Shown: positions 8,846 through 48,213 of the stretch, one piece after another
Numbering within the stretch: position 1 is the first letter of the stretch
Layout of the letters: every line of letters begins with the position of its first letter
NCBI RefSeq assembly: GCF_011044155.1
Contig: NZ_CP049056.1
Coordinates: 3,848,001 to 3,912,000, forward strand
Reading direction: 5' to 3'
DNA from: Pikeienuella piscinae
Lineage (GTDB): Bacteria; Pseudomonadota; Alphaproteobacteria; Rhodobacterales; Rhodobacteraceae
Length of the DNA stretch: 64,000 bases
Notes under the pieces: generated by a model
What the model was told of the DNA's origin: nothing
Seen by the model: the letters and a program-made list of their open reading frames with translations, nothing else
The model's database searches: none
Position numbers and translations under genes: made by a program

Positions 8846-8929
8846 GGAACGCCCCTGCTTCCTCTTAACCCAAAACACCGTGATCCTGAGCCGCCACCGG
8901 CGCCGCAGAATCCCGCAAGTCACTCCTCA

Positions 8930-8972
8930 TGCGGTTGCATTTTAAACAAAATTGTGGCAAAAAGACGAGCGA
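8930..8972 (-). terminator. Possible weak terminator/attenuator between flp and cpaB
   Basis: On the minus strand downstream of flp the sequence CGAG-GTTTCG-CTCG can form a short four-base-pair hairpin, followed directly by TCTTTTT. This would allow much more flp than cpaB-tadC transcript, as is usual for a major pilin. The stem is short, so the call is tentative. Confidence 0.3.
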
Positions 8973-9060
8973 AACCTCGGGTAATGAACCGTGCCGCGCT
9001 ATCGGCCGTCATGGTTGAGCAGTGACGCCATGGCTTGCCGCCTGGTCACAAGCCGCGTCC

Positions 9061-10521: not shown

Positions 10522-10544
10522 GGCGCCGCCCCTGGCGGCGGCGT

Positions 10545-11171: not shown

Positions 11172-11174
11172 GGT

Positions 11175-32892: not shown

Positions 32893-32986
32893 GAATCCTC
32901 CATCGCTTTTCATGGCAGCCTTGCCAGATCGTCCAGGGAAAATCTATAGTGTTTAGGATACGAAATTTTGTCATGGAGGCCATAAA

Positions 32987-34686: not shown

Positions 34687-35475
34687 TCATTTTCCGCGAA
34701 AGACGGGCGGGCGCTTTTCGACAAAGGCGGCGACGCCCTCCTTGTAGTCGTCGCTCACCACCGCCTGCGCGCCGAGGGCGGCGATCTCCGCGTGTTCCGC
34801 CGGCGTCGGTTCCGGCTGCACCGCGCGGATCACCCGCTTGGCGCCGGCGATCGTAAGCGGCGCGGAGGCGCGCAATTCCTCGGCGCGCGCCTTCGCTTCC
34901 GCGACCGGATCCCCCGCGCAAATCTCCGAGAGCAGCCCCATTTCCAACGCCTCCGGCGCCGGGTGCCGGCGACCGGAAAAGAGCACGCTCTTCGCACGCT
35001 CGACGCCGACAGCTGCGACCAGCGCGCGCGTCTCCGCCACGCCATAGACGAGGCCGAGCTTCGCGGCGGGGATGCCGAGATAGGCGCTCGCGTCGCCGAT
35101 CCGGAAATCGCAGCAGAGCGCGAGCCCGCAGCCCCCGCCCATGGCCGCGCCGGAGATCGCGGCGAAAACCGCCTTCGGGCACTCGAGTATCGCCGTATTC
35201 GCCCGCTCGACCGTTTCCGAGTAGCGGCCGCCCGCCTCCGCGCCGGTGCGGGCGGCCGCGAATTCCTTGATGTCGGCCCCGGCGCAAAACGCCCCGCCCG
35301 CCCCGGTGAGGATCACCGCGCGGATCTCCGGCTCCGCCGAGAGCGTGAGGAACGCGTCGCCGAGCGCGCGCCACATCGCCAGCGTCATCGCGTTGCGCTG
35401 TGCGGGCCGGTCGATGGTCACGACTGCGATAGCCGGGTCGGATCGATCGACGACGATAGCGGCGGCGTCGGACAT
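34687..35475 (-). CDS. Enoyl-CoA hydratase/isomerase-family protein
   Basis: The 262-residue crotonase-fold protein has the oxyanion-hole segments AFCAGADIKEFAAA and GAAMGGGCGLALCCDFRIG, each in the expected place, plus IPAAKLGLVYG. The two catalytic Glu of true hydratases are not both obvious (GLVYGVAETRALV holds one candidate), so a different crotonase reaction is possible. Its start is 23 bases from a degenerate copy of the cluster operator at 35498-35513, which places it in the predicted UTRA regulon. Confidence 0.87.
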   Translation of the reverse strand: MSDAAAIVVDRSDPAIAVVTIDRPAQRNAMTLAMWRALGDAFLTLSAEPEIRAVILTGAGGAFCAGADIKEFAAARTGAEAGGRYSETVERANTAILECPKAVFAAISGAAMGGGCGLALCCDFRIGDASAYLGIPAAKLGLVYGVAETRALVAAVGVERAKSVLFSGRRHPAPEALEMGLLSEICAGDPVAEAKARAEELRASAPLTIAGAKRVIRAVQPEPTPAEHAEIAALGAQAVVSDDYKEGVAAFVEKRPPVFRGK

Positions 35476-35497: not shown

Positions 35498-35513
35498 ATT
35501 TGTCCGTATCAAT
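35498..35513. promoter_or_regulatory. Degenerate copy of the cluster operator upstream of the enoyl-CoA hydratase gene
   Basis: ATTTGTCCGTATCAAT keeps 13 of 16 positions of the palindrome ATTTGTCCGGACAAAT found elsewhere in the cluster; the left half is intact and the right half is changed. It is 23 bases upstream of the hydratase ATG and 85 bases upstream of the small frame before the CaiB gene. A further isolated half (TTGTCCGTATCG) occurs at about 35750. Confidence 0.5.
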
Positions 35514-35597
35514 TGCAACATCATCCGGCGCGCGATAGCAAGGTTGCGCATGTTGCGCGCCGGCCGTCAGAGGCGCGGGACAGGAGGGAGAAGCGCC

Positions 35598-35816
35598 ATG
35601 TGGTCCAATCCCCGCATTCCCTTCCCGCTGGCGAGCGCGGACGTCCCCTCGCGCCGCCCGATCGTCGCCGAGATCGCGACCGACATCGAACACCAGTCTT
35701 TCGAGCGGCAAGCGCCGCCCGGTCGCCCGGCGGCGACGCTCACGTTGCTTGTCCGTATCGCCGGCGTCGCCGCGCTGGCCGTTTCTTCCGAAGGTTCACC
35801 ACAGGAGGGCGTATGA
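35598..35816 (+). CDS. Small leader frame of unknown function upstream of the CaiB gene (72 aa)
   Basis: An ATG at 35598 follows a strong ribosome site (AGGAGGGAG at 35582-35590). The 72-residue product MWSNPRIPFPLASADVPSR... has no family I recognise; RPIVAEIATDIEHQSFERQ looks like the edge of a folded protein. Its TGA (35814-35816) overlaps the start region of the CaiB gene. Either it is a real small protein coupled to the CaiB gene or the truncated remains of a longer one. Confidence 0.45.
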   Translation: MWSNPRIPFPLASADVPSRRPIVAEIATDIEHQSFERQAPPGRPAATLTLLVRIAGVAALAVSSEGSPQEGV

Positions 35817-36997
35817 TGACCTCGACCGCGCTTTCGCATCTTCGCGTTCTCGACCTCACGCGGGTGCGGGCCGGGCCGACCTGCTGCCGCGTCCTCGCGG
35901 ATTTCGGCGCCGACGTGATCAAGGTGGAGGCGCCGGCGGGGGTCGACCCGAACGCGGGGCTGGGCGGGCCGCGCGACAGCTCCGACATGCAGAACCTCCA
36001 TCGCTCGAAACGGTCGCTGACGCTCAATCTGAAGACCGCGGACGGGCTGGCGATCTTCCGGAAGCTGGCGGAGACCGCCGACGTGGTGGTGGAGAATTTC
36101 CGGCCCGACGTTAAGGACCGGCTGGGCGTCGGCTACGACGATCTCCGCGCGATCAATCCCCGGATCGTGCTCGCGTCGATCTCCGGGTTCGGCCAGACCG
36201 GCCCCTATGCTTCCCGCGCCGGCTACGATCAGATCGCGCAGGGCATGGGCGGGCTGATGGCCGTCACCGGCCTCCCCGGCCAGGGGCCGGTGCGCGCCGG
36301 GGCGGCGGTCGCGGATTCCGCCTCAGGCCTCTACGGTTGCCTCGGGATCCTCATCGCGCTGGCGGAGCGCGAGCGCTCCGGCGAAGGGCAATGGGTGCAG
36401 ACCTCGCTTCTGGAGGCGCAGATCGCGATGATGGATTTTCAGGCGGCGCGCTATCTGGTCGATGGCGTGACTCCGGGCCAGGCGGGGAACGATCATCCGG
36501 TCTCGACCCCGATGGGGGTGGTGGAGACCCTCGATGGCCATCTCAACCTGGCGGTTGGCGGCGACGGGCAGTGGCGGGCGCTCTGCGCGGCGTTGGAGAT
36601 GCCGGAACTCGGGGACGACGCGCGCTTCGCGACGGACAAGAAACGGCTGGAGAACCGGGAGGCCTGCTGGGCCGCGCTTCGGCCGGTCTTTCGCGCCCGC
36701 ACCACCGCCGAATGGATCGAGACGCTCGCCGCCGCTTCGGTGCCGGCCGGGCCGATCTACCGGATGGACGAGGTTTTCGCCGATCCGCAGGTTCGCCATC
36801 TCGGCATCGCCGCAAGCGTGCCCCATCCGACCCGTGGCGAGGTTCGGCTTGTCGGGCAGCCGGTGCGGCTTTCGCGGACACCGGCGGCGATCAGCGGGCC
36901 GGCGCCCGAGGCCGGAGCGGAGACCGAGGAGATTCTCGGGGGCCTGGGTTACGGGGCCGATGATATCGCCCGTCTTCGGGCGGCTGGCGCGGTGTGA
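35816..36997 (+). CDS. CaiB/BaiF-family CoA-transferase (first of cluster)
   Basis: I chose the second of two adjacent ATGs (35816) because AGGAGGG at 35803-35809 is then at a normal distance; 393 residues. Family blocks: LRVLDLTRVRAGPTCCRVLADFGADVIKVE, ENFRPDVKDRLGVGYDDL, SGFGQTGPYASRAGYDQIAQGMGG, and the catalytic Asp region QTSLLEAQIAMMDFQA, in which the usual Asp in V-x-x-S/A-L-x-D is replaced by Glu (SLLEAQI). It should transfer CoA to or from a carboxylic acid; the Asp-to-Glu reading depends on alignment. It lies in the cluster with the repeated operator. Confidence 0.9.
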   Translation: MTSTALSHLRVLDLTRVRAGPTCCRVLADFGADVIKVEAPAGVDPNAGLGGPRDSSDMQNLHRSKRSLTLNLKTADGLAIFRKLAETADVVVENFRPDVKDRLGVGYDDLRAINPRIVLASISGFGQTGPYASRAGYDQIAQGMGGLMAVTGLPGQGPVRAGAAVADSASGLYGCLGILIALAERERSGEGQWVQTSLLEAQIAMMDFQAARYLVDGVTPGQAGNDHPVSTPMGVVETLDGHLNLAVGGDGQWRALCAALEMPELGDDARFATDKKRLENREACWAALRPVFRARTTAEWIETLAAASVPAGPIYRMDEVFADPQVRHLGIAASVPHPTRGEVRLVGQPVRLSRTPAAISGPAPEAGAETEEILGGLGYGADDIARLRAAGAV

Positions 36998-37041
36998 GCC
37001 AGCGAGGAAGCGGCGCTTGACAGGCGGAGGCGGCCGGGTAG

Positions 37042-37057
37042 TCCTGTCCGGACAAAT
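37042..37057. promoter_or_regulatory. Cluster operator upstream of the second CaiB gene
   Basis: TCCTGTCCGGACAAAT matches 13 of 16 positions of the cluster palindrome, with the core TGTCCGGACA intact. A TTGACA at 37017-37022 could be a -35 element; the operator centre lies 32.5 bases after its first base, so it would cover the -10/+1 region, as expected for a repressor. The CaiB gene starts 177 bases downstream. Confidence 0.7.
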
Positions 37058-37233
37058 ACCGCGCGCCAGCGACGCCTGCTGAAGCGCCGATCGAAAAGAC
37101 GATCAGGAAACCGTCCGATGCGCTGCGCCCGCCGATCTGCTCTTCCTGCGCCCGCGACGCGGCCCGAGCGGGCGCTCCGTGTTGGGCGGCGGAAGTCGAG
37201 CGCCGGTTTGCGGGGTCGCAGGGCGGGCGCGCC

Positions 37234-38436
37234 ATGACCGGCCTGCCCCTCGACGGCGTTCGAGTCCTTTCCGTCGAGCAATACGGCGCGGGGCCGTTCG
37301 CGTCGCTCTATCTTGCGGACATGGGCGCGGAGGTGATCAAGATCGAACCCCCGACCGCGCCGGGCCGGCCCGGCGGCGACAGTTCGCGCCGGTCCGGGCC
37401 GCATTTCCTTGGCGAGGGCGACAGCCACTTCTTCCAGACCTTCAACCGCAACAAGCGCTCGCTCACGCTCGACCTGAAGCGGGCGGAGGGGCGGGAGATC
37501 CTGCATGCGCTTCTCCCCGGCGCCGACGCGGTGATGAACAATCTCCGGGGCGATCAGCCGGCGAAGCTTGGCGTCGACTACGACGCGCTCGGTGGGCTGA
37601 AACCAGCGATCGTCTGCGCGCATCTTTCGGCCTATGGCCGGACCGGCGCGCGGGCCGGCTGGCCGGGTTACGATTTCCTGATGCAAGCCGAAGCCGGGTA
37701 TCTCTCGTTGACCGGCGAGCCGGGCGCGCCGCCGGCGCGGATGGGGCTTTCGATCATCGACTACATGACCGGCGTGACCACCGCCTTCGCGCTGGTCGCC
37801 GCGCTTCTCGCCGCCGCGCGGACGGGGCGCGGGCGCGATGTCGACGTCTCGCTCTTCGACGTCGCGATGCATCAGCTTTCCTATCCCGCGACCTGGTATC
37901 TCAACGAAGGCGACGCGATCGGCCGGCGGCCGCGCTCCGGCCACCCTTCGGTCGTCCCCTGCGAGACGATGCCGACGAAGGACGGCTGGATCTTCGTCAT
38001 GTGCGTGCTGCCGAAATTCTGGGAGGGGCTGGCGGCGGCGCTCGGCCGCCCCGATCTGCCGCGGGATCCGCGCTTCGCCGACCCGGCGGGCCGGCTCGCC
38101 AACCGGGATGCGCTGATGGCGATTCTCGACCCGTTGACCAAGACGCGGACGACGGCGGAATGGATGGAGGTCTTCGCCGGAACGGTGCCTGCGGCGCCGG
38201 TGCTCGATTTCGGCGCGGCGCTCGACAATCCGTTCTTTCGCGAGCGGGGCGGCGTTCGGACGGTTCCGCATCCTGTGCGGCCCGGCTTCGGGATGGTGGC
38301 GAACCCGATCCGCGCCGGCGCGGCGCCGGACGACCGGCCGGCGCCCGCGCTCGGGGCGGACACCGACGCGCTCCTGCGCGAGATCGGCGTCGCGCCGGCG
38401 CGCATCCGCGCGCTCCGCGCCGCCGGCGTGATCTGA
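37234..38436 (+). CDS. CaiB/BaiF-family CoA-transferase (second of cluster)
   Basis: The 400-residue protein has VRVLSVEQYGAGPFASLYLADMGAEVIKIE at the start, FFQTFNRNKRSLTLDLK, HLSAYGRTGARAGWPGYDFLMQAEAGY and the catalytic VDVSLFDVAMHQLSY with the expected Asp (LFD). It belongs to class III CoA-transferases. Two such enzymes in a row, both with an operator nearby, suggest either a two-acid pathway or two partners of one reaction. The substrate is not known. Confidence 0.92.
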   Translation: MTGLPLDGVRVLSVEQYGAGPFASLYLADMGAEVIKIEPPTAPGRPGGDSSRRSGPHFLGEGDSHFFQTFNRNKRSLTLDLKRAEGREILHALLPGADAVMNNLRGDQPAKLGVDYDALGGLKPAIVCAHLSAYGRTGARAGWPGYDFLMQAEAGYLSLTGEPGAPPARMGLSIIDYMTGVTTAFALVAALLAAARTGRGRDVDVSLFDVAMHQLSYPATWYLNEGDAIGRRPRSGHPSVVPCETMPTKDGWIFVMCVLPKFWEGLAAALGRPDLPRDPRFADPAGRLANRDALMAILDPLTKTRTTAEWMEVFAGTVPAAPVLDFGAALDNPFFRERGGVRTVPHPVRPGFGMVANPIRAGAAPDDRPAPALGADTDALLREIGVAPARIRALRAAGVI

Positions 38437-38586
38437 GGGGGCGGGCGACGCGAAACTCGACACTGCGCGCCGTCCCGATCCCGCGCCGCCGGGTCTCGGC
38501 CGACGCGCCGTCGAAGCCCTGCGCGAAGCGGGATGTTGGGAGCAGGAGACCGAGGCGGCGTTGAAAGCGGCGCGAAAAGGTTGGAG

Positions 38587-39333
38587 TCAGCTCTCCTCCG
38601 CGTCGTCCCGCTTGAAGCGCATGAAATAGGTGAATCTCTCCGCCGGATGCCAGTCGATCGAAACGATCAGCGGCCGGTCGGCGTCATCGAGATAGCGCCC
38701 GGTCACGCGGATCGCCATCGCGCCCGGCGCCGCGCCGAGGGCGGCGCCGGCGTCGGCCGGGAAAGGCTCTGCCGCGATCTTTCGCGTCACCTCGACGATA
38801 TTCGCGCCGTAGCGCGCCTCCAGCATCCGGTGGACCGGCGCGGAGAGCCCGGGCAGGTCGGGCGCCGCCGCGAGATAATCCTCGTGGAGATAGATTCGGG
38901 AGAAATTGATCGGGTCGCCGTCGCGCGCGCGGCGCACACCTTCTGAGATCAGCCAGGAACGGCCGGGCGGACGGCCCAGAAACGCGGCGAGTTCTGCGTC
39001 CGCCTCGACGATCCTGATGTTCTCGAGCGTGAGCCGCGTATCCGCGCCGTATCCGAAAAGCTCGCTCAGGGAGCGCACGCCGAGATGGTAGCCGCCACGC
39101 GGGTCGGCCGAGATCACCTCGGATCCGGAACCCTGCCGGCGGCGCAGATAGCGACGCGAAGAGAGAAGTCGCAGCGCCTCTCGGATGGTGAAGCGCGAAA
39201 CCCCGAATTCGGAGCAGAGTTCCTGCTCGCTCGGAAGCGACGAGCCGACGGGGTAGACGCCCCGCTCGACCCGTTCGATCAGCGTCTCCGCCAGATGCCG
39301 GTATCTCGGCTTGCCCGCGCTCTGATCCTTCAT
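38587..39333 (-). CDS. GntR-family (HutC-type) regulator with UTRA domain
   Basis: I chose the ATG at 39333 (248 residues); the frame is open further but that part overlaps the neighbouring gene. The N-terminal winged helix reads LIERVERGVYPVGSSLPSEQELCSEFGVSRFTIREALRLLSSRRYLRRRQGSGS, in register with HutC-type repressors. The C-terminal UTRA domain (about residues 90-240) contains PINFSRIYLHEDYL and a YLDDADRPLIVSIDWHPAERFTY end. HutC-type proteins bind palindromes of the form TTGT-N4-ACAA, matching the repeated 16-bp palindrome in this cluster, so it is the likely regulator. Confidence 0.9.
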   Translation of the reverse strand: MKDQSAGKPRYRHLAETLIERVERGVYPVGSSLPSEQELCSEFGVSRFTIREALRLLSSRRYLRRRQGSGSEVISADPRGGYHLGVRSLSELFGYGADTRLTLENIRIVEADAELAAFLGRPPGRSWLISEGVRRARDGDPINFSRIYLHEDYLAAAPDLPGLSAPVHRMLEARYGANIVEVTRKIAAEPFPADAGAALGAAPGAMAIRVTGRYLDDADRPLIVSIDWHPAERFTYFMRFKRDDAEES

Positions 39334-39365
39334 CAGCGGCCCTTCCCTGACGTCGTTCCCGCGCC

Positions 39366-40610
39366 TTACATCGCCCGGCGCGCCGCGTCCCAGGCGTTCG
39401 CCAGTTCGTCGCGATGCTCGGGCGCCGCGATCCCGATAAGCGCGGCGGCCCGCGCGTCGATGTCGAGCCCGCCGATATCGGCGACCCCGTGCTCCGTCAC
39501 CACGATCCCGGTATCCGCGCGCAGGATGGAGGCCGGCGCGGCGGCGTCGAGCATGGGGACGATGCGGCTGGTCCCCGCCCGGCCCGCGGTCGCCGGCAGC
39601 GCGAGGATCGCCCGCCCGCCCTTCGACGCGCGTCCGCCGCGCTGGAAATCCGCCGCTCCGCCGATGCCGGAGACCTGCCGCCCCGCCAGCGTCTCGCAAC
39701 TCGCCTGGCCGAAAAGATCGACCGAGAGCGCCGAGCCGATGGCGATGAAGCGCGGAATCGCCGCCAGTCGGGCGGCGTCATGCGTGACCGATACCGGCGC
39801 GAAGCGGATCACCGGATCGCGCCGCAGCCGCTCGTAAAGCGCGGGCGAGCCTATCGCGAAGCCTGCGGTGACGCCTTTCGTCAGAACCCCGGCGTCGATC
39901 AGCGCCGCCGCGCCGTCGGTTATCATCCCCGCGTGATAGCCGAGGTCGCGGTGATCCTTCAGCGCCGCGAGAACAGCGTCGGCGGCTTTGCCGATGCCGA
40001 TGCTGACGATGTCGCCAGGCCGGATCATCGCCGCGATCCGCGCCGCGATCGTCTCCAGCGCCGCGCCGGCCGCGCCGCCCTCGAGGCGGGGGAGGGGGGT
40101 CTCCGCCTCGATCAGGGCGGCGAAGCGCCCGACAGGCGCGCGCGGGGCCGAGGGCGGCGCCGGCATCGCCGGGTTGACCTGCCCGATCAGCACTGCGCCG
40201 GAGGCCTCGAGCGCATCGAAGAAATCGCAGGCGACGCCCGGCGTCACCATGCCCGCTTCGGGGGGCGAGATCTGCATCACCGCGCCTTTCAGCCCGGCGG
40301 CGTCCCGCGCCCAGCCGGGGATATGGCAGTAATGGCTCGGATGAAGGCGCACGCGCCCGGCGGCGAAACCGTCCCGGAGCGCCGGTGTGACGAAGAAGGC
40401 GCGCGCGGTCGCCTCCGGCGCCAGCGCCGAGGGGTCGCGCCGGTTCACGCCGGGAATCCAGACGCCGCAAAACTCCAGCCCGCGCCCGATTCCCGGATCC
40501 GCCGCGAGCGCGTCGAGCGCCGCCGTCGGCTCGCCGGTCGCGCCCGCGATCCAGACGCGGTCGCCCGGGCCGAACATCCGGAACGCTTCGGCGAAACCCT
40601 TGCTCACCAT
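39366..40610 (-). CDS. Acetyl-CoA hydrolase/4-hydroxybutyrate CoA-transferase-like protein
   Basis: I chose the ATG at 40610 (414 residues), preceded by GGGGAG. The family blocks include PGDRVWIAGATGEPTAALDAL, HYCHIPGW, QISPPEAGMVTPGVACDF and GIGKAADAVLAALKDHRDLGYHAGMITDGAAALIDAG; the Glu expected to form the CoA-thioester intermediate is not certain without alignment. The C-terminal ILRADTGIVVTEHGVADIGGLDIDARA is typical of the AbfT/Cat1 group. It would make or recycle a CoA thioester. It is 32 bases upstream of the UTRA regulator and under an operator at 40677. Confidence 0.87.
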   Translation of the reverse strand: MVSKGFAEAFRMFGPGDRVWIAGATGEPTAALDALAADPGIGRGLEFCGVWIPGVNRRDPSALAPEATARAFFVTPALRDGFAAGRVRLHPSHYCHIPGWARDAAGLKGAVMQISPPEAGMVTPGVACDFFDALEASGAVLIGQVNPAMPAPPSAPRAPVGRFAALIEAETPLPRLEGGAAGAALETIAARIAAMIRPGDIVSIGIGKAADAVLAALKDHRDLGYHAGMITDGAAALIDAGVLTKGVTAGFAIGSPALYERLRRDPVIRFAPVSVTHDAARLAAIPRFIAIGSALSVDLFGQASCETLAGRQVSGIGGAADFQRGGRASKGGRAILALPATAGRAGTSRIVPMLDAAAPASILRADTGIVVTEHGVADIGGLDIDARAAALIGIAAPEHRDELANAWDAARRAM

Positions 40611-40676
40611 TCTCAACTCCCCTTCGCCGCGTTTTCCCGCGGGGGCGCCGGTGCGCCCCGTGAAACCGATGCTAGA

Positions 40677-40692
40677 ATATGTCCGGACAAAT
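40677..40692. promoter_or_regulatory. Cluster operator upstream of the AbfT-like gene
   Basis: ATATGTCCGGACAAAT differs from the perfect palindrome at one base. On the minus strand it falls in the spacer of a plausible promoter: TTGGGA, 17 bases, TATTCT. It is 67 bases upstream of the gene and would block RNA polymerase when bound. Confidence 0.75.
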
Positions 40693-40860
40693 CGCATCCC
40701 AAATCAGACATACGGGTGCGTGAAAGCGTCGCCCGTCTTCTGAACCGACGCTTCCGCAGCGCGCCGAGGGCGCGTCAACCCGGCGGGAATGTGCGCCGTT
40801 CAGGCGTCCAGCGCCGCGCGCGTCCGGTCAGCGGGCGGTTGGGCGCGACTCGCCCGACGC

Positions 40861-41799
40861 TCATGAGACCGTTCCGAACCGCCGAAGGCGGGCGAAGAGC
40901 GGTCGCATCAGGAGTGGCGCGAAATAGATCGGCAATTGCGCGGTGATGACGACGAGCGCGATGCGCGGCTCCACCGCGCCGAGGACCGCCGCCACCATCA
41001 CCGCCATGTTCTTGACGCAGGCGCAGAGCCCGGCGGCGAAGGCCTCGTCCCGCCCCGTCCGCCAGAAGGCCGCAACGCCGAGCAGGAGCGACCCGGCGCT
41101 GACCGCGGCGGTGAGCGCGAAGATGCCGAACCATGACGCCGGATCGGCCCGCAGCGCGATACCGATATCATGCATGACACCGATGCTGATGAGGACGACG
41201 AGGGCGACAGTGGCCGCGTCGAGCGGAACCGCCCAGGTCCTGACCCGCGCGTCGCCGGCGACGCGCCTGAGAAGAAGCGCGAAGGCGAAGGCGCCGAGAA
41301 TGATCGCCGAAAGCCGGATGACGAGCGCGCTGACATCGACCCCTTCGCCCAGTCCCGGCGCGGCGCTGGTCACCAGCCAGACCGTCGCCGGCGCCATCAG
41401 CGTCGCCGGTAGCGACACCCCGGTGGCGAGCGCCGGATCGATCCGGACGAGAATCGCGAAAGCGGCGGCCGAACTCAGCGGCGGCGCGGCGGCGGCGTAG
41501 GTGAGCCCCGTGGCGAGCCAGCCCGGCGCGCCGAACGCCCAGGCCAGCAGGGCGACCGCCAGCGGCAGGACGATCAGAGCGAAGAGCCCGGTCACACAGA
41601 CGAAAAGCGGCCGCCGCAGCACGGCGACCAGCCGCGTCGGCTCGATCCGCAGCATCGAGATCACCACCATCGCGACCGAAATCGCGACGACCGCCGGGCG
41701 TACGAACTCCGCCAGCGCCGGCGCCGCGAGACCGAGCGCGACCCCGCCCGCCATCAGGAACGGGGCCTGGGCCGTCATCAGATTCATGACAGCGCGCAT
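40861..41799 (-). CDS. BASS-family (bile acid:Na+ symporter-like) transporter
   Basis: The 312-residue protein has about nine hydrophobic helices and the BASS topology, with FAILVRIDPALATGVSLPATLMAP and GLCACVKNMAVMVAAVLGAV being the two crossover-type regions. The family takes up organic anions with sodium. It is in the operator-linked cluster and follows the small frame at 41803 with three bases between, so it is probably an importer for a pathway substrate. Confidence 0.87.
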   Translation of the reverse strand: MRAVMNLMTAQAPFLMAGGVALGLAAPALAEFVRPAVVAISVAMVVISMLRIEPTRLVAVLRRPLFVCVTGLFALIVLPLAVALLAWAFGAPGWLATGLTYAAAAPPLSSAAAFAILVRIDPALATGVSLPATLMAPATVWLVTSAAPGLGEGVDVSALVIRLSAIILGAFAFALLLRRVAGDARVRTWAVPLDAATVALVVLISIGVMHDIGIALRADPASWFGIFALTAAVSAGSLLLGVAAFWRTGRDEAFAAGLCACVKNMAVMVAAVLGAVEPRIALVVITAQLPIYFAPLLMRPLFARLRRFGTVS

Positions 41800-41802
41800 C
41801 GA

Positions 41803-42066
41803 TCAGGACCCCGCCGGAACGCGGGCGGCGAAACCCGCGCCGATCGTCCGGCGTGTCGCGATGCGGGCGCCTTCCGCCGCCGCGACATGGGCGAGGAAAG
41901 CATCCGGCGCGCCGGTCCGTCCCGGGCGGCCGGCGATCCCCGGCCACAGTCCGGCCGACATCGCCTTCGGCGCCGCACGGACGGTTTCCGTCCTCTTCCT
42001 GTCGCCCTCGGCGCCGCTCATCCCTGAGCGTTCCTCGCCATCGGGCCAGGACAGGTCGTCAGTCAT
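41803..42066 (-). CDS. Small hypothetical protein before the BASS transporter (87 aa)
   Basis: The 87-residue frame starts at an ATG 24 bases downstream of the perfect operator and ends 3 bases before the BASS gene. It has a hydrophilic N-terminus and an Ala/Arg-rich end (FLAHVAAAEGARIATRRTIG). No family is recognised. Position relative to the operator and the tight spacing are the main evidence; it could be a spurious frame in a leader. Confidence 0.4.
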   Translation of the reverse strand: MTDDLSWPDGEERSGMSGAEGDRKRTETVRAAPKAMSAGLWPGIAGRPGRTGAPDAFLAHVAAAEGARIATRRTIGAGFAARVPAGS

Positions 42067-42089
42067 CCGCGCGCTTCCCGCATCCGCTG

Positions 42090-42105
42090 ATTTGTCCGGA
42101 CAAAT
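42090..42105. promoter_or_regulatory. Perfect 16-bp operator palindrome upstream of the BASS operon
   Basis: ATTTGTCCGGACAAAT is a perfect palindrome. On the minus strand a TTGACA (42130 down to 42125) lies with its first base 32.5 bases from the palindrome centre, exactly the spacing seen at the second CaiB promoter. The two promoters share GCTTGACAGGCG upstream. The site is also 38 bases from the stop of the TRAP permease gene. Confidence 0.85.
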
Positions 42106-42142
42106 TGAAGAGGCGGCCCGCGCCTGTCAAGCGGCGTCGCCT

Positions 42143-44044
42143 TCAGCCGCCGCCGCTTCGGGAGAACGCCCGTTCGCCCTTCGGCTGGCGCAGCCTGAAG
42201 AGCCAGAGAAGCGCGAAGAGGAGGCATCCGGCGGCGTTGAGCCAGATCGCGCCGGAGATCACGCCATGCGGCAGCAAAACCACGAGGCCCGAGAGCGCCG
42301 CGACCGCGCGCTCCCGGCCAGAAAGCGAACGGCCGAGGAACCCGACGATCCCCGCGGTCACGAGATAGACGCCGGCTAGCGCCGTCGCGAGGGTGAGGCC
42401 GATGTCGAGCGGCGGCCCGTCGAGCAGCAGCGCCGGCGAGGCGGCGAAGAGAAACGGGATGAGATAGGCCGGCCAGGCGATCCTGACCGCCTCCCAGCCC
42501 GTGGCCATCGGGCTCGCCCCGGCCATGTTCGCCGCCACAAAGGCGGCGATGGCGACCGGCGGCGTCAGCATCGAGAGCATGCCGAAATAGAGAACGAAAA
42601 GATGCGCCGCCATCGGTTGCAGCCCTAGCTCGACCAGCGGCGGCGCGGCGAGCGACGCCAGGAGAAGATAGACCCCGACCGTCGGCAGCCCCATGCCCAT
42701 CACGATGCAGACCGCCGCGGTGACGCAGAGAAGAAGAAGGAGGCTGGATTTCCCGAGTTGGACGAGAAAGAAACCGAGCCCGAAGGAAAGCCCCGACCGG
42801 GCGATCAGCCCGATGATCATTCCGGCGATGGCGCAGATCAGGATGATCTCAACCGCCGATTTTCCCGCCGCGACCAGCACTTCGCCGACCGTCCGGAGGG
42901 TGATGCGCCGCCCGTCATAGGTGTGAAGGAGGGCGAGCGCGAAAAGAACGAGGATCGCGATCAGCGCCGCCGTTTCAGGCCGAAGATTGAAACGGAAGAG
43001 CCCGATCAGAAGCGCCGCGAAGGGCGCGAAAACCACCCAGCCGCGTCGAAGCACGCCGGCGAGCGCCGGAATCCGGCTTTCCTCGACGCGCGCGATGCCG
43101 CGGCGTCCGGCCTCCAGATCCGCGAAGATGAAGAGGCTGAGATAATAGAGCAGCGACGGCGCCGCGGCCGCCAGCATCACTTCGGTGTAGCTGGCCTGAA
43201 GGTTCTCGGCGAGGAGGAACGCCGCCGCGCCCATGATCGGCGGCATCAGCTGCCCGCCGGTCGACGCCGCGGCCTCGATCGCCCCGGCGGTCCTGGCGCT
43301 GTAGCCGCCCTTCTTCATCATCGGGATGGTGATCGCGCCGGTGGAGGCGACATTCGCGACCGCGCTGCCGGACACCGAGCCGAAAAACGCCGAGCCGAGG
43401 ATCGCGATCTTGCCCGCGCCGCCGCGTTTGCGCCCGGCCAGAGCCAGCGAGAGATCGGAAAAGCAGAGCGACCCCCCCGTCGCGGTCAGAAGCTGGGAAA
43501 GGATCAGGAACGGAACGACCACCGCGACCGCGATGGAGAGCGCCGCGCCGGCGAGCGAGGCGCTGTCGAGGATGAGAAAGGTCAGCAACCGGTCGGGCGC
43601 GATCGCCCGGCTCTGGAGCGGGCCGGAAAACTTGTCGGCGAAGAGCGCGTAGAGGCAGACGCAGCCGAGAATGATGATCAGGCTCCACCCCATCGTCCTG
43701 CGCACCGCGTCGATAAGCAGGACGAAGCCGATGATGGAGACGATCAGCGCCTCGACCGGATGATAGAAGACGTTCTCGGAAAGAATAGTGAAGCGCGCCG
43801 CCAGCCAGCCGCCGAAGATCAGCGACGCCGCCGCGCACGCCGCCGAGATGAGCGGCGCGCGCCCCGGCCGCGTCAGGAAGGCGATGGCCATCGCCAGCGC
43901 CAGCGCGACAATCAGCACCTGTTCGGAATAGAGCCGCCAGCCGATCCAGAGCGGGGCGCCCGACGACCAGAAAATGGCGACGACCGCGGTGAGCCCGGCG
44001 AGCAGGGCGGCGATGGCCGCCCCGCCGCCCGTGCGCGCCGTCAT
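42143..44044 (-). CDS. TRAP transporter fused permease (TAXI type, DctQM fusion)
   Basis: I chose the ATG at 44044 (633 residues); the longer frame overlaps the binding-protein gene. It is a very hydrophobic protein with roughly 16 helices, including the DctM signature region GSVSGSAVANVASTGAITIPMMKKGGYSARTAGAIEAAASTGGQLMPPIMGAAAFLLAENL. Fused small and large subunits are typical when the binding protein is of the TAXI kind, as here. It should import an organic acid with sodium. It is downstream of the TAXI gene with 34 bases between. Confidence 0.93.
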   Translation of the reverse strand: MTARTGGGAAIAALLAGLTAVVAIFWSSGAPLWIGWRLYSEQVLIVALALAMAIAFLTRPGRAPLISAACAAASLIFGGWLAARFTILSENVFYHPVEALIVSIIGFVLLIDAVRRTMGWSLIIILGCVCLYALFADKFSGPLQSRAIAPDRLLTFLILDSASLAGAALSIAVAVVVPFLILSQLLTATGGSLCFSDLSLALAGRKRGGAGKIAILGSAFFGSVSGSAVANVASTGAITIPMMKKGGYSARTAGAIEAAASTGGQLMPPIMGAAAFLLAENLQASYTEVMLAAAAPSLLYYLSLFIFADLEAGRRGIARVEESRIPALAGVLRRGWVVFAPFAALLIGLFRFNLRPETAALIAILVLFALALLHTYDGRRITLRTVGEVLVAAGKSAVEIILICAIAGMIIGLIARSGLSFGLGFFLVQLGKSSLLLLLCVTAAVCIVMGMGLPTVGVYLLLASLAAPPLVELGLQPMAAHLFVLYFGMLSMLTPPVAIAAFVAANMAGASPMATGWEAVRIAWPAYLIPFLFAASPALLLDGPPLDIGLTLATALAGVYLVTAGIVGFLGRSLSGRERAVAALSGLVVLLPHGVISGAIWLNAAGCLLFALLWLFRLRQPKGERAFSRSGGG

Positions 44045-44078
44045 CGCCGGCGCGCCTTCGCGGCGCCCATTCGGACGA

Positions 44079-45026
44079 TCATTCGGCCCAGACGCCCATC
44101 TCCTTGTAGAACCTGATCGCGCCCGGGTGATATTCGACGCCGAGATCCTTGCCCATCCGCTCCCTTGCGAAGCCGCTCCAGACCGGCCCCTGCGCGACAA
44201 GATCGGCTTGCTTCTCCCAGAGCGCCTTGGTCGCCGCGTAGACCATATCGTCCGAGACATCCTTGCCGGCGAAAAGCGTATAGTCGAAGACGTTCACGTT
44301 GGTCGGCTCGTCGATGCCCGGTATTTTCGCGTCCGGGCCGACTTCGGCGAGGTAGCTCTGGGGCATGTATTCGTTCATGCGCGCGACTGCTTCCGGGCTA
44401 TCTTCGAACGAGAGGTATCGGATGCCGAAGCTGGCGTCGTATTCGCGGCTGTTGCCGGCCCCGACGACGACGATGGCGACATCGACGGACCCCTCGGCGA
44501 AGGCCGCCCACATCCGCGGGAAGTTCGGCACCGCGACGCCCTCGACCCCGTCGAGCCCGAGCCCGGCGTTGGCGAAATAGCCGCGCGTCACGTAATCGCC
44601 GAGCGCGCGCTCCGCGAATACCGGCACGCGCTTGCCTTCGAGATCGGCGATCGTCTCGATGCCGCTGTCGCGGCGCACGACATAGGCGTTCCGGAACGGC
44701 ATCAGCGTCGCGACCATCCGCAGATTGGGGTTCGGCCGGCCCTCCGACATGCCGGTTCCCGAGACGGCGTAGCCGAGCTGAACGATGTTCGAGATGCCGA
44801 ACTCCATCTCGCCGGCGTTCACCAGCGGAATGTAGTCGGCGGTGTTGGCCAGCTCCTGCGGCCGCATCTGGAGATCCGAAGCCTCCGAGATCGCGGCGGC
44901 GAGCGAGCGGCCGACCTGGCTGGTGCCGCCCTTCTGGGTCGAGCCGAGGGCGGCGACCTCAGCCGCGACCGGCCCGGCCGACAGCACGGCGGCGAGCGCG
45001 GCGGCGATCAATCCTGTGTAACGCAT
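44079..45026 (-). CDS. TAXI-family TRAP solute-binding protein
   Basis: I chose the ATG at 45026 (315 residues), which gives a signal peptide ending AGPVAA; GGGAGAC lies upstream. The TAXI fold is shown by ALGSTQKGGTSQVGRSLAAAIS near the start, PLVNAGEMEFGISN, and NLRMVATLMPFRNAYVVRRDSGI. It binds the substrate in the periplasm and hands it to the fused permease encoded next. It follows the racemase-like gene by 25 bases, so the three form one operon. Confidence 0.92.
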   Translation of the reverse strand: MRYTGLIAAALAAVLSAGPVAAEVAALGSTQKGGTSQVGRSLAAAISEASDLQMRPQELANTADYIPLVNAGEMEFGISNIVQLGYAVSGTGMSEGRPNPNLRMVATLMPFRNAYVVRRDSGIETIADLEGKRVPVFAERALGDYVTRGYFANAGLGLDGVEGVAVPNFPRMWAAFAEGSVDVAIVVVGAGNSREYDASFGIRYLSFEDSPEAVARMNEYMPQSYLAEVGPDAKIPGIDEPTNVNVFDYTLFAGKDVSDDMVYAATKALWEKQADLVAQGPVWSGFARERMGKDLGVEYHPGAIRFYKEMGVWAE

Positions 45027-45051
45027 TTCAGAAGTCTCCCTGTCTTGTTTC

Positions 45052-45798
45052 TTAGTGTCTCTCGAAGAGCGGTCCGTGACCTTTGAACTGGTCCCTGACG
45101 CCCATCGCCCGCAGCGCATGCCAGTAGGTCGCGGCGTTGATGGCGATGAAGGGCTTGCCGTATTCGGCCTCCAGCTCGAGGCAGAGCGACACCATCGAGA
45201 GATTGGTGCCGACCTGGACGAAAGCGTCGATATCGTCGCCATCCATTTCCGCGACATGGGCGCGAAGCTCCTCCGGCTGAACCTCGGCGATGGCGACCGG
45301 GCTGGCGCATTTCAGGCCGCGAAAGCGCGCGACCTCGAAGCCGCAATCCTGGAAGAACCGGGTCACGTTCCGGTCGGATATCGGGAAATACGGCGAGATC
45401 ACCGCGATCCGCTTGGCCCCTGTCAGGTTCAACGCCGCCTCGCAGGCGAAGGAGCCGGCGGAAACGCCGAGCCCGCAACGCTCGGAAAGCTCCTGCATCC
45501 GTTTTTCGGAGGCCGCGCGCCCGTCCCAGAACATCAGCGCCGACATGCCCATGATCAGATAATCCGGCTGGCAGGTGAGGCAGCGGTCGACGGCGTCGTT
45601 CAGCGTGCTGCCGATCGCCTCCACCAGAGCGACGAAATCCTCGTCATTGCCGACCTTCATGTTCGGCACGTAGATGCGGCCGAAGTGATTGGTGACGCCC
45701 TCGACGCGCAGATCGTCCATATCCGGCTGCACGATGGTGTTCGTCGACGGCGCCACTACGGCGAATTTGCAGCGCCATCCGCGCGCGTCTCTGGACAT
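45052..45798 (-). CDS. Asp/Glu racemase superfamily protein (maleate isomerase/arylmalonate decarboxylase type)
   Basis: The 248-residue protein has VVAPSTNTIVQPDMDDL near residue 14 (substrate-carboxylate-binding Asn as in maleate isomerase), MGMSALMFWDG at about residue 82, CGLGVSAGSFACEAA and VQVGTNLSM at about 200. In characterised family members the segments corresponding to MGMSAL and VGTNLS carry one or two catalytic Cys; here both positions appear to be non-Cys (Ser and Gly/Thr). It may therefore be a decarboxylase-like or binding variant. It leads the operon with the TAXI-TRAP importer, so its substrate is likely the imported acid. Confidence 0.8.
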   Translation of the reverse strand: MSRDARGWRCKFAVVAPSTNTIVQPDMDDLRVEGVTNHFGRIYVPNMKVGNDEDFVALVEAIGSTLNDAVDRCLTCQPDYLIMGMSALMFWDGRAASEKRMQELSERCGLGVSAGSFACEAALNLTGAKRIAVISPYFPISDRNVTRFFQDCGFEVARFRGLKCASPVAIAEVQPEELRAHVAEMDGDDIDAFVQVGTNLSMVSLCLELEAEYGKPFIAINAATYWHALRAMGVRDQFKGHGPLFERH

Positions 45799-45860
45799 GG
45801 GCTACTCCCTTCGTCGAACATCGGTCGTCACAACACAATGCTTTCAGGCGGCCGTCAAGA

Positions 45861-45876
45861 ATTTGTCTGGACAACT
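45861..45876. promoter_or_regulatory. Cluster operator upstream of the racemase-TRAP operon
   Basis: ATTTGTCTGGACAACT matches the cluster palindrome except for two positions (T at position 8 and C near the end). It is 63 bases upstream of the racemase-like gene. A minus-strand TTGACG lies between it and the gene. It is 62 bases from the copy at 45923, about six helical turns. Confidence 0.7.
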
Positions 45877-45922
45877 CGCCATGCGGTTGACCGGGCGCGG
45901 CGGTGGAACCTATGCATCGTCG

Positions 45923-45938
45923 TCCTGTATGGACAAAT
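45923..45938. promoter_or_regulatory. Second cluster operator copy at the head of a gene remnant
   Basis: TCCTGTATGGACAAAT keeps the right half of the palindrome and most of the left. It overlaps the ATG of the remnant at 45929. With the copy at 45861 it brackets the divergent start region. Confidence 0.5.
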
Positions 45939-46051
45939 TCACCACGAAGGGAAACATCCTGGCCGGCCCGCGGCACCGAAGCATGATCGCAGCGGGCGAG
46001 CTTGTCATTGCGCCGGGGGGCTTCGACATGATCTCGACGCCGCCCGGCTGA
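45929..46051 (+). pseudogene. N-terminal remnant of an isocitrate lyase/PEP mutase-family gene
   Basis: An ATG at 45929 opens 40 codons ending in TGA at 46049-46051. The piece RSMIAAGELVIAPGGFDMIS matches the first strand of the ICL/PEPM barrel (usual pattern: LL-x-x-PG-VYDALSAR). After this point the sequence is the end of the convergent monooxygenase gene, so more than 200 codons of the barrel are missing. The gene was probably cut off by a deletion that joined it to the monooxygenase gene. The operator copy at its head suggests the original was part of the regulon. Confidence 0.6.
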
Positions 46052-46058
46052 ACCGGGT

Positions 46059-47249
46059 TCAGGCCACGGCCTCCAGATCGCGGAGCGACTGGATCATCGA
46101 GGAGCGCATGACGTAGGCGAAATGACGCTTCGGGTCGTCCACGGTCGCGCGAAGATCGTCATGGAAGGCGCGGCGCTTCGCCGGATCGGCCTCATTCAGC
46201 ATGGCGCGGTTTCTGAGCGCCTGCGCCTGCACCGTCTCGATCGCCACCTTGCGGCGCTGGCGCTCATAGCGCCCGAGCGTCTCGATCGGCGCGCCGCGCC
46301 AGACTTCGGCCAGCCGCGCGGAAAGATTCACCGCGTCATGGATGCCGCCGTTCATCCCCATGCCGCCCAGCGGGTTGTTGAGATGGGCGGCGTCCCCGGC
46401 GAGAAAGATCCGGCCGTGGATGTATTTCTCCGCCACCCGCTCATGCACGCGATAGGCGGTCTTGTGCGCGATTTCGTAGGGCGCCCCCGGCAGGACCGCC
46501 TGCATCCGCCGCTCGATGAAATCCGGATCTAGGATCGCCGCGTCGCTCAGGCCGGGATCGGTGGGGAAGAGCACCCGCCAGAGCGTCGGCGTGCGCAGCA
46601 GCACCAGCCATTCCTCCGGGTCGGAGATGTAGCTGATGTCCGCAAGGCCGTCGATCGCCAGATCGTAGCGGAAGGGCGTCGAGAGCGAGAGGAATATCTC
46701 CGGGATCGTCATGCCCTCGAAGGCGACGCCGGTCGCCCGGCGCACGGCGGAGCGCGCGCCGTCGGCGCCGATCAGGTAACGCGCGCGGAATGTCTCCGCG
46801 GCGCCGTCGGTCCGCCGCGCGGTCACTTCGACGCGGTCGGCGTTCTGCGTCGCGTTCTCGACCACGATATCGGTGATCAGCGCCGCGTTCGGGTCCGCCT
46901 CCAGCCGGGCGCGCGCGGCTTCGGTCAGCTTCCACTGCTCGCACTGGAGCCGGTAGGGATGGTCGGTCTCCGACGCCAGAAGGCCGAGATCGAATGTCGC
47001 GATCTCGCCCTCCTTCCGGTCGCGGAATTGCCAGTAGGGGCATTTGCGGCCGCGTTCGATCAGCCCGTCGGCCAGGCCGAGACGGCTGAGAAAGTCCAGC
47101 GTGGGCGGATGAAACGTCGAGGCGCGCAGATCGACCGCAAGGTCGGACGACGCCTCCAGCACCGTCACCGGCACGCCCTCTTCGAGAAGCGACACCGCCG
47201 CCACCAGACCGACCGGGCCGGCGCCCGCGATCAGCACACCCTTTTCCAT
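46059..47249 (-). CDS. FAD-dependent aromatic-ring-type monooxygenase
   Basis: I chose the ATG at 47249 (396 residues). The FAD-binding motif VLIAGAGPVGLVAAVSLLEEG is at the N-terminus, the ARYLIGADGARSAVRRATG (DG motif) is in the middle and GRIFLAGDAAHLNNPLGGMGMNGGIHDAVNL is the second FAD (GD) motif. This is the PHBH/MhpA group, which hydroxylates aromatic or heteroaromatic acids with NAD(P)H. It is divergent from the SDR with an operator between them. Converges with the PEP-mutase remnant. Confidence 0.9.
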   Translation of the reverse strand: MEKGVLIAGAGPVGLVAAVSLLEEGVPVTVLEASSDLAVDLRASTFHPPTLDFLSRLGLADGLIERGRKCPYWQFRDRKEGEIATFDLGLLASETDHPYRLQCEQWKLTEAARARLEADPNAALITDIVVENATQNADRVEVTARRTDGAAETFRARYLIGADGARSAVRRATGVAFEGMTIPEIFLSLSTPFRYDLAIDGLADISYISDPEEWLVLLRTPTLWRVLFPTDPGLSDAAILDPDFIERRMQAVLPGAPYEIAHKTAYRVHERVAEKYIHGRIFLAGDAAHLNNPLGGMGMNGGIHDAVNLSARLAEVWRGAPIETLGRYERQRRKVAIETVQAQALRNRAMLNEADPAKRRAFHDDLRATVDDPKRHFAYVMRSSMIQSLRDLEAVA

Positions 47250-47312
47250 ATCGCTCGCCCGCTGCTTCCGCTCGATTGCGAAGGTATCGGCGGCCCGGCT
47301 CCGGTCAAGGGT

Positions 47313-47328
47313 ATTTGTCTGGACAAAT
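47313..47328. promoter_or_regulatory. Cluster operator between the divergent monooxygenase and SDR genes
   Basis: ATTTGTCTGGACAAAT is the cluster palindrome with one base off perfect symmetry. It is 64 bases from the monooxygenase start (minus strand) and 52 bases from the SDR start (plus strand), so one bound dimer could control both. Confidence 0.8.
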
Positions 47329-47379: not shown

Positions 47380-48213
47380 ATGAACGACGCTTCCCTCAAC
47401 GGCCGGGCCGTTCTGGTCACCGGCGGAACCCGCGGCCTCGGGCGCGTGATGGCCCGCGCGCTGGCGGGGGCCGGCGCGCGCGTCGCGATCACCGGCGTTT
47501 CGGACTCCGCCCGGCTTCGCCGCGCTGCGGGCGAACTCTCTGCGGCGGGCGCCGGCGACAGTCTGGCCATCGCGGCCGACGCCGCGGACCCCGATCAGGC
47601 CGCGATGGCGGTGGAGCGGACGAACGCCGCCTTCGGCCGAATCGACGTACTGGTGAATAACGCCGGGCTTGGAATGCGGCTGGTTTCGGAGAGGTTCAAC
47701 CTTGAACCGGCGAAGTTCTGGACCGCGCCGCCCGCGTCCTGGGCGCGGATCGTCGGCGCGAATGTCAACGGCCCGTTCTTCACCGCTCGCGCGGCGGCGC
47801 CGCTGATGATCGCTCAGGGCTTCGGCAAGATCGTCAATATCTCGACCTCGGCGCAGACGATGGTGCGGACCGGCTATTCGCCCTACGGGCCCAGCAAGGC
47901 GTTCCTCGAAGCGGCGAGCCGCGCCTGGGCGGCCGACCTCGCGGGCGCCGGCGTCGACGTCAATGTCCTGCTGCCCGGCGGCGCGACCGACACTGACCTG
48001 TTGCCGCCTTCGCCGAAAAAGCGCGGCGCGGACGGCAACCTACTGGATCCGCGGATCATGCGGGCGCCGATCCTCTGGCTCGCCTCTGACGCCTCGAACG
48101 GCGTCACCGGCGGGCGCTTCATCGCGCGGCTCTGGCCCGACGCGCCGCCCTATCCCGGCGCGGCGCGAGACGCCGCGCCAGCCGATGAAGCCGCGCCGCC
48201 GCGGATCATGTAG
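47380..48213 (+). CDS. Short-chain dehydrogenase/reductase
   Basis: The 277-residue protein has the cofactor motif VLVTGGTRGLGRVMARAL (TGxxxGxG) at about residue 12, LVNNAGLG (NNAG) at about 90, ISTSAQ with the catalytic Ser, and YGPSKAFLE (YxxxK). It oxidises or reduces an alcohol/ketone with NAD(P). The last 30 residues are Ala/Pro-rich. It overlaps the end of the convergent cysteine hydrolase by eight bases, which is a little unusual. Confidence 0.9.
   Translation: MNDASLNGRAVLVTGGTRGLGRVMARALAGAGARVAITGVSDSARLRRAAGELSAAGAGDSLAIAADAADPDQAAMAVERTNAAFGRIDVLVNNAGLGMRLVSERFNLEPAKFWTAPPASWARIVGANVNGPFFTARAAAPLMIAQGFGKIVNISTSAQTMVRTGYSPYGPSKAFLEAASRAWAADLAGAGVDVNVLLPGGATDTDLLPPSPKKRGADGNLLDPRIMRAPILWLASDASNGVTGGRFIARLWPDAPPYPGAARDAAPADEAAPPRIM

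Follow-up and report, generated by a model that had tools for sequence, protein, structure and literature searches.

Regulators of the HutC subfamily (HutC, PhnF, DasR, NagR/YvoA, TreR) combine a GntR winged helix with a UTRA domain and are associated with GT-N4-AC palindromes, which lie in divergent promoters, and they count their own genes among their targets. AraR, the regulator of arabinose genes in Bacillus, carries a sensor domain of LacI type where these proteins have UTRA. In the available text of a comparative study of the GntR family, the sites of HutC-type proteins are described as GT-N4-AC and those of FadR-type proteins as GT-N2-3-AC, and GTMTAKAC is named as the typical centre of the HutC subfamily, with exceptions listed (PMC4494728). 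The locus considered here belongs to the alphaproteobacterium Pikeienuella piscinae and lies in a stretch of 64,000 nucleotides (contig NZ_CP049056.1, positions 3,848,001 to 3,912,000), called the window below, in which a 16-mer palindrome, ATTTGTCYGGACAAAT, recurs before the genes of a catabolic cluster that also encodes a UTRA regulator at 38587-39333 (-). With a probability of roughly 0.83, this palindrome is the operator of that UTRA/HutC-type repressor, which would now serve two gene sets that appear to have merged.

The nearest published operator met with is the ara box of AraR, for which the available part of the source gives the consensus At(T/A)tGTaCGTAcaa(A/T)T in Bacillus subtilis (PMC4218819). 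It has the same length and symmetry as the palindrome, and ATTTGTACGTACAAAT and ATTTGTCCGGACAAAT differ only at positions 7 and 10. In the open-access literature searched, as far as listings and the beginnings of abstracts go, no description of the present operator was found, and its core strings led only to titles on human disease, quantitative PCR, yeast or fly, with no title on a bacterial operator.

A palindrome recurring with a UTRA regulator

The protein encoded at 38587-39333 has an N-terminal GntR winged helix-turn-helix (PF00392, 68.9 bits against a cut-off of 27) and a C-terminal UTRA domain (PF07702, 57.2 bits against 23.8), and it matches DasR over residues 5-243. It differs from the described members of the HutC subfamily in reaching none of the NCBIfam equivalog cut-offs that it matches (PhnF 73.4 of 156.8 bits, HutC 68.7 of 220, TreR 54.2 of 211.95, PhnR 47.7 of 296.75), and in its putative targets, which are CoA-transferase, AMDase, monooxygenase and TAXI-TRAP genes. 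By gene association, the GT-N4-AC pattern takes the form GT-CYGG-AC in the window and in relatives; the centre is thus GTCYGGAC, with CYGG in place of the MTAK that is typical of, though not required in, the subfamily.

Copies were sought with ATTTGTCYGGACAAAT, with the reversed pattern as control, and with two matrices. Matrix A was built from 89 sites (up to two mismatches) in 45 loci of relatives, including L088, which had been fetched for the motif; matrix B rested on 81 sites taken from relatives of other genera, with the window sequence and L088 excluded. The regulator, the first gene of its operon and the seven sites are as follows.

38587-39333 (-), GntR/HutC-type regulator with UTRA domain, the proposed reader of the sites (Pfam GntR 3e-19, UTRA 2e-15)
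39366-40610 (-), acetyl-CoA hydrolase/transferase family, first gene of the regulator operon (Pfam AcetylCoA_hyd_C 6e-43)
35498-35513, putative weak operator, ATTTGTCCGTATCAAT, between enoyl-CoA hydratase (-) and CoA-transferase (+); 17.4 bits with matrix A, 16.9 with matrix B, rank 6
37042-37057, putative operator, TCCTGTCCGGACAAAT, before a family III CoA-transferase (+); 18.7 bits with matrix A, 18.1 with matrix B
40677-40692 (-), putative operator in front of the hydrolase-regulator pair, reading ATTTGTCCGGACATAT on the coding strand; 29.2 bits with matrix A
42090-42105, putative operator, perfect, before a small open reading frame and the membrane-protein operon (-); 32.3 bits with matrix A
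45861-45876, putative operator with one mismatch, between the AMDase-family operon (-) and a lyase remnant (+); 27.2 bits with matrix A
45923-45938, second putative operator of a pair, decayed, 62 bp from 45861; 13.9 bits with matrix A, rank 7
47313-47328, putative operator, perfect, between an FAD monooxygenase (-) and a short-chain dehydrogenase (SDR) gene (+); 31.2 bits with matrices A and B

An earlier note, made from the sequence alone, had placed seven copies at these positions and none elsewhere in the window, and both statements are confirmed. The seven 16-mers are the best in the window with matrix B (32.6, 31.2, 29.6, 27.3, 18.1, 16.9 and 12.6 bits), the eighth scoring only 3.8, and they also rank first with matrix A (13.9 to 32.3 bits, the eighth 4.6). 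Matrices from 7 hydrolase-linked or 9 monooxygenase-linked loci place the same seven at ranks 1-7, although with the hydrolase-linked loci alone 45923 is at noise level (3.7 bits against 3.5 for the next 16-mer). Six of the seven lie within three mismatches of ATTTGTCYGGACAAAT and yield 12 strand-matches, a number that none of 100 shuffles reached and that compares with 0.20 for the average shuffle; the seventh, 45923, reads TCCTGTATGGACAAAT and has four mismatches. The whole genome (4,373,045 bases, one contig) holds nine places with up to three mismatches, six of them inside the window, while the reversed control gives one match per strand. The three further places, viewed as sequence only, have three mismatches each. 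The exact 12-base core TTGTCNNGACAA occurs at four places in the genome, three of them inside the window. The seven copies are real and local; a chance origin is ruled out by the shuffles, the genome scan, the ranking with matrix B and the reversed control in relatives.

Whether the palindrome follows the UTRA gene in relatives was answered in favour of the earlier note's proposal: it recurs beside one clade of regulators, largely before the same genes. Among 195 genomes (own included), 22 encode a homologue of the regulator (E <= 1e-20) and 24 contain the palindrome at up to one mismatch, compared with 9 for the reversed control; homologue and site occur together in 10 (Fisher 3e-5), and of the 21 other genomes that encode a homologue, 8 have a site at most 3 kb from it (G001, G002, G003, G065, G108, G115, G151, G185). 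A larger set comprised 133 loci (2.39 Mb; 80 loci among the matches listed in the species-genome scan, together with relatives' stretches of up to 20 kb). It holds 29, 55 and 46 sites at zero, one and two mismatches (130 in all), where the reversed pattern gives none, and 51 against 11 at three mismatches. Leaving out 15 loci fetched for the motif (L084-L098) and the duplicates L140, L178 and L211, the 115 remaining loci (2.05 Mb) hold 24, 41 and 43 sites (108) against 0, 0 and 0, and 46 against 7 at three mismatches.

In a regulator tree of 117 rows, from which the same three duplicates had been dropped, the window regulator falls in a clade of 50 rows (SH-like approximate likelihood ratio test, SH-aLRT, 97 in a quick tree). 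A site with up to two mismatches lies within 8 kb in 45 of the 50 clade rows, window included, compared with 15 of the 67 rows outside, a difference for which the Fisher p of 1e-13 is an overstatement because the rows are related. This co-occurrence, together with the GT-N4-AC spacing, supports the UTRA protein as the probable reader of the local regulon. As judged from the genomes compared, the clade with this predicted operator is widespread, and the palindrome accompanies it in many genomes.

Putative target genes and promoter geometry

The genes that would form the regulon, beside the hydrolase and the regulator, which starts 32 bp behind it, are these.

34687-35475 (-), enoyl-CoA hydratase/isomerase, putative target (Pfam ECH_1 6e-54)
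35813-36997 (+), family III CoA-transferase (CoAT1), which lies about 300 bp past the 35498 site and may be controlled from it (Pfam CoA_transf_3 2e-122)
37234-38436 (+), family III CoA-transferase, putative target (Pfam CoA_transf_3 1e-111)
40861-41799 (-), membrane protein, putative target; a 58% homologue lies behind the operator in L144
42143-45798 (-), AMDase-TAXI-TRAP operon, putative target (Pfam Amdase, NMT1_3, DctM; synteny in relatives)
45052-45798 (-), AMDase/maleate-isomerase family, member of that operon (Pfam Amdase)
44079-45032 (-), TAXI-type binding protein, member of that operon
42143-44074 (-), fused TRAP permease, member of that operon
45959-46048 (+), remnant of a methylisocitrate-lyase/PEP-mutase-family (PEP, phosphoenolpyruvate) gene (alignment to 10 relatives; intact 285-aa gene in L063)
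46059-47249 (-), FAD-dependent monooxygenase, putative target (Pfam FAD_binding_3 2e-58; nearest solved chains PnpA and HspB)
47380-48213 (+), SDR, divergent putative target of 47313 (Pfam adh_short 4e-41)

The family matches of the enzymes (PnpA/HspB, AMDase/maleate isomerase, methylisocitrate lyase) are generic, and therefore no substrate is named. The membrane protein has no Pfam or NCBIfam match, its label "BASS" having been given by eye only. This gene is separated from the operator at 42090 by an open reading frame of 87 codons (41803-42066, -), which may be a gene, a remnant or a leader; in L144 the match to the membrane protein begins only 58 bp behind the operator.

Among the 49 other loci of the clade, a site with up to two mismatches was counted as upstream when it lay within 350 bp. 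Such sites precede 9 of 10 hydrolase, 15 of 23 monooxygenase, 16 of 35 AMDase-family, 6 of 10 CoAT0, 5 of 8 HMG-CoA-lyase-like (HMGL) and 4 of 23 SDR genes, and the single membrane-protein gene (1/1). TAXI and TRAP genes are internal to operons and can therefore be used as a negative control: no site stands before TAXI (0/15) or TRAP (0/16) genes, and at up to three mismatches the count for TAXI becomes 1/15. DctM genes have none either (0/12). The same count in 80 other loci gives four matches (hydrolase 1/4, AMDase 1/8, CoAT0 1/10, SDR 1/27). The claim that the copies mostly lie in gaps before operons is borne out at the window sites and, among the 89 sites in 45 loci, none falls within any recognised gene of the cluster (mean coverage 28%), and for 62 the start of such a gene is at most 450 bp away, at a median of 66.5 bp. 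The further claim, that the operator defines membership of the cluster better than gene order does, also holds. Before the hydrolase-regulator pair the conservation reaches identity: of the 11 distinct loci that could be assessed, 8 have the 16-mer ATTTGTCCGGACATAT of the window upstream (L060, L069, L133, L134, L135, L137, L153, L159) and L144 has a variant, while L143 is cut too short to be assessed.

The sites stand in a regular relation to promoter elements. The word TTGAC occurs within 45 bp of the 89 sites 71 times (both orientations), compared with 8, 13 and 11 for three control words, with peaks 19-22 nt upstream (21 cases) and downstream at gap 2 (17 cases) and gaps 5-6 (11 cases). 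In the window, the operators at 37042 and 42090 begin 19 nt after TTGACA and therefore lie on the -10 region; the former geometry recurs in L134 at 20 nt, and in L144 the operator also precedes the 58% membrane-protein homologue. The operator at 40677 runs into a -10-like TATTCT box, aligned in the loci with TATTCT/TATTTTA-like sequences. At the AMDase promoter, for which no clear -10 was seen in the window, a TTGACG box at 45853-45858 (-) is 2 nt from operator 45861, and GTCAA stands beside the operator in this spacer between AMDase and lyase genes in 10 of 10 aligned relatives. Several relatives have an operator flanked by two opposed TTGAC boxes, as in CGTCAAGA-ATTTGTCYGGACAAAT-TATTGACC.

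Both placements suit a repressor. The protein of 38587-39333 would accordingly act as a local repressor with ATTTGTCYGGACAAAT as operator, binding as a dimer, as is assumed from its family. When bound, it would cover the -10 region at the promoters of the CoA-transferase and the membrane protein, the spacer or -10 of its own hydrolase-regulator operon, by which it may regulate itself, or, at the promoters of the AMDase-TRAP operon and the monooxygenase, the DNA directly upstream of the -35 boxes. Release would come from an effector bound by the UTRA domain, presumably the carboxylate that is imported or an intermediate formed early from it. We infer binding, repression, effector and the order of events from what is observed in the DNA, namely the sites, their conservation with the regulator clade, the promoter geometry, the absence of the second regulator gene described below and the position in the tree.

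That the regulator is instead an activator or a dual regulator is unlikely. The many operators immediately upstream of a -35 box, with TTGAC downstream at gap 2 or at gaps 5-6, are what such a protein would use, but in the 21 cases with TTGAC 19-22 nt upstream and in the hydrolase promoters the operator is on the -10, where blocking is expected. Characterised HutC-type regulators, moreover, are mostly repressors.

The second regulator and operator dialects

A repressor of the hydrolase-linked type with sites at both gene sets appears to result from a merger. In other alphaproteobacteria the hydrolase, CoA-transferase and hydratase set has its own UTRA regulator, in relatives the monooxygenase, AMDase, TRAP and SDR set has a different one, and both clades are associated with the same operator. 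A deletion would then have taken the second regulator and most of the lyase, leaving the hydrolase-linked regulator to serve both sets. The two gene sets, with their shared operator, appear to have merged under one regulator.

When the window monooxygenase was searched against 394 genomes of the family, proteins at least 69% identical were found in 10 other genomes (L061, L063, L065, L068, L119-L124), and in 10 of 10 a UTRA regulator gene follows the monooxygenase, although in L122 an additional gene of the AMDase family stands in between. The same-genus loci L064 and L072 have the same arrangement but were found through the regulator. Across these 12 monooxygenase-linked loci, the monooxygenases are 68-85% identical to that of the window and the regulators only 35-40%. 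The order in L063 is AMDase, two sites, lyase (8651-9508), regulator (9513-10295) and monooxygenase (10324-11532). In the window the lyase is reduced to about 30 codons, with CTG at 45959 in place of the old start codon; the monooxygenase stop comes already at 46059, and the rest of the lyase and the monooxygenase-linked regulator gene are absent. Compared with the intact arrangement, a single deletion of some 1.6 kb would be the simplest cause of their loss. When the genome was probed with the L068 regulator, the window regulator was the best match (134.6 bits, 36%); 14 further matches reach at most 37.3 bits and mostly cover only the helix-turn-helix (HTH), one extending over residues 16-221 at 28.7 bits. 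With this probe, no close homologue of the second regulator was found in the genome besides the hydrolase-linked paralogue.

The pair of sites in front of the lyase has also changed. Five of the 10 relatives aligned (L061, L063, L064, L122, L124) have the second site, while none was seen at up to three mismatches in the other five; 45923 is its positional counterpart in the same-genus L063 (8608) and L064 (6139), where the spacing of the pair is 61. The earlier note had 45923 overlapping the start of the gene remnant, which stands for the present open frame, whose ATG (45929) the site holds, but not for the ancestral gene, as the start codon of the relatives aligns with 45959, about 20 bp past the site. 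In the region 45877-45928, an 8-bp insertion relative to relatives separates the first operator from the lyase-side TTGACC box, and the second operator and lyase start are decayed too.

In the tree, the window regulator groups with the hydrolase-linked regulators, the nearest being L133, L134 and L159. Orthology with the 12 monooxygenase-linked regulators was rejected by the approximately unbiased (AU) test (p-AU 1e-4, log-likelihood difference 49.8), also without the HTH columns (p-AU 0.0015), and the hydrolase-linked clade of eight, window included, was not rejected (p 0.54). No close homologue of the hydrolase was found in the three other same-genus genomes, one of which (G003) has a 34% partial match and one of which (G002) is 66% complete; this fits a gain of the hydrolase set here, a loss elsewhere being possible.

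The two groups of loci differ in the centre of the operator, with CTGG in 18 of 27 sites of monooxygenase-linked loci and CCGG in 17 of 20 of hydrolase-linked loci. The window has both, CTGG at 45861 and 47313 and CCGG at 37042, 40677 and 42090. At HTH residue 48 the window regulator has Phe, which is shared by 12 of 12 monooxygenase-linked regulators, whereas the seven hydrolase-linked relatives have Tyr (6) or His (1). By an alignment of SRxT to the table of the comparative study, this residue corresponds to position 39 there, for which the available text, using Met and Asp as its examples, gives a link to the central nucleotides (Suvorova et al. 2015, PMC4494728). Of 17 diagnostic positions, 11 are hydrolase-like in the window, three monooxygenase-like (35, 48, 171) and three neither. 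A chimeric regulator with a monooxygenase-type DNA-binding domain is not supported, as the HTH has a mean identity of 55.9% to hydrolase-linked and 51.2% to monooxygenase-linked regulators; the best single rows of the two groups tie at 59.7%. In 47 rows, at least one CTGG or ATGG site accompanies 17 of 21 regulators with Phe and 5 of 26 with Tyr or His, a strong association by rows, and by majority centre the counts are 13 of 21 and 5 of 26, a weaker one. The tree contains five independent pairs, on average 2.1 pointing the same way, 0.1 the other way and the rest tied (0.8 and 0.2 with majority centres); with only five pairs the co-variation of residue 48 and operator centre is therefore not significant, although suggestive as a lead. 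Somewhat short of an even chance is the fuller scenario in which paralogous regulators had CCGG and CTGG dialects, one was deleted here, and the survivor came to resemble its lost paralogue at a residue of the recognition helix (Phe48) and at Ser35, which would let it read the two dialects alike.

Alternatively, the UTRA regulator might read only 40677, 42090, 37042 and 35498, the CTGG sites 45861 and 47313 being relics of the lost regulator, unregulated or fading. The clade difference in centres, CTGG being monooxygenase-linked and CCGG hydrolase-linked, would agree with this, as would the decay of the lyase and of 45923 and the insertion on the lyase side. It is nevertheless improbable: 47313 is perfect and 45861 has one mismatch despite diverged flanking DNA, a matrix from the hydrolase clade alone still gives them 28.0 and 20.7 bits (ranks 3 and 4), and the window regulator has the Phe48 of all 12 monooxygenase-linked ones.

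Several observations weigh against a single repressor reading all seven sites. Both sites of G133 are far from its regulator homologue, and the motif is matched in 14 of 173 relatives without a homologue (E <= 1e-20). It is not exclusive to the clade, since five of the 50 clade rows lack it (L126, L157, L158, L163 and L203) and 15 of the 67 rows outside have it; no site at all accompanies the hydrolase-regulator pair of L070 and L205. At 35498 the match is weak and a clear TTGAC box is missing, and the window CoA-transferases and hydratase as targets find weak support in the clade loci (CoAT2 1/14, hydratase 1/5, in L133, and CoAT1 0/11). The placement just upstream of the -35, taken alone, would also suit an activator. 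Finally, the groups of the AU test were named after the first tree had been viewed, and there is poor support for the precise point at which the window regulator branches among its hydrolase-linked kin.

The adjoining module and wider meaning

The earlier note's statement that the UTRA protein is the only DNA-binding protein of the cluster is correct within the range it covered, with the detail that a gene for an FCD-type (FadR-subfamily) GntR protein, the open reading frame at 33691-34578, lies just outside. It is extremely unlikely that this protein reads the palindrome, leaving some other role to the UTRA protein. In its favour are its membership of the GntR family of DNA-binding proteins, the distance of only 108 bp between its gene and the hydratase gene, and the L127 cluster, which has an FCD homologue (64%) with AMDase, monooxygenase and TRAP genes. 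But L127 has no UTRA gene and no palindrome at up to three mismatches, L128 and L129 have neither regulator in the stretch searched and no palindrome either, the FCD homologues matched three times in the 49 clade loci have no site upstream (0/3), the FCD-linked HMGL and CoAT0 genes have no window site in front, and the spacing of four in GT-N4-AC departs from the GT-N2-3-AC given for the FadR subfamily in the available text (PMC4494728); on spacing and co-occurrence this reading is rejected.

The region 31672-34578, with a CoA-transferase, an HMG-CoA-lyase-like gene and the FCD-type GntR gene, forms an adjoining module without the palindrome. Its spacer holds TTTAGGATACGAAA, and the same spacer in L127 holds TTTGGTATACAAA, a candidate FCD operator. 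In L142, L147, L151, L160, L161 and L186 the homologous CoA-transferase has the UTRA palindrome instead. The family members L127, L128 and L129 have AMDase (78%), SDR, TAXI-TRAP and 49-50% identical monooxygenase genes, but neither a UTRA gene nor the palindrome was present over the stretch searched; these enzymes apparently come under yet another, third kind of control there. The available text of PMC4996985 describes AMDase genes that neighbour TRAP transporters. In L060, at about 160-2660, there are repeats that translate to FQSTHPQGCD in open frames and resemble a CRISPR array.

Mergers of regulons and replacements of regulators have been described in proteobacteria, as far as the available part of the source goes (PMC5343134). 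In those cases, as here, a regulator was lost or exchanged and regulons were expanded or merged; unlike them, both regulators here would be paralogues with nearly the same operator, and the sites therefore could have stayed as they were or nearly so. Losing one regulator out of a pair that shares an operator would be a concrete case of local regulons fusing without promoter rewriting. For a clade of UTRA regulators undescribed in the literature searched, the locus provides a predicted operator and a list of targets, which may help to place AMDase-family, CoA-transferase and TAXI-TRAP genes in pathways in many alphaproteobacteria.

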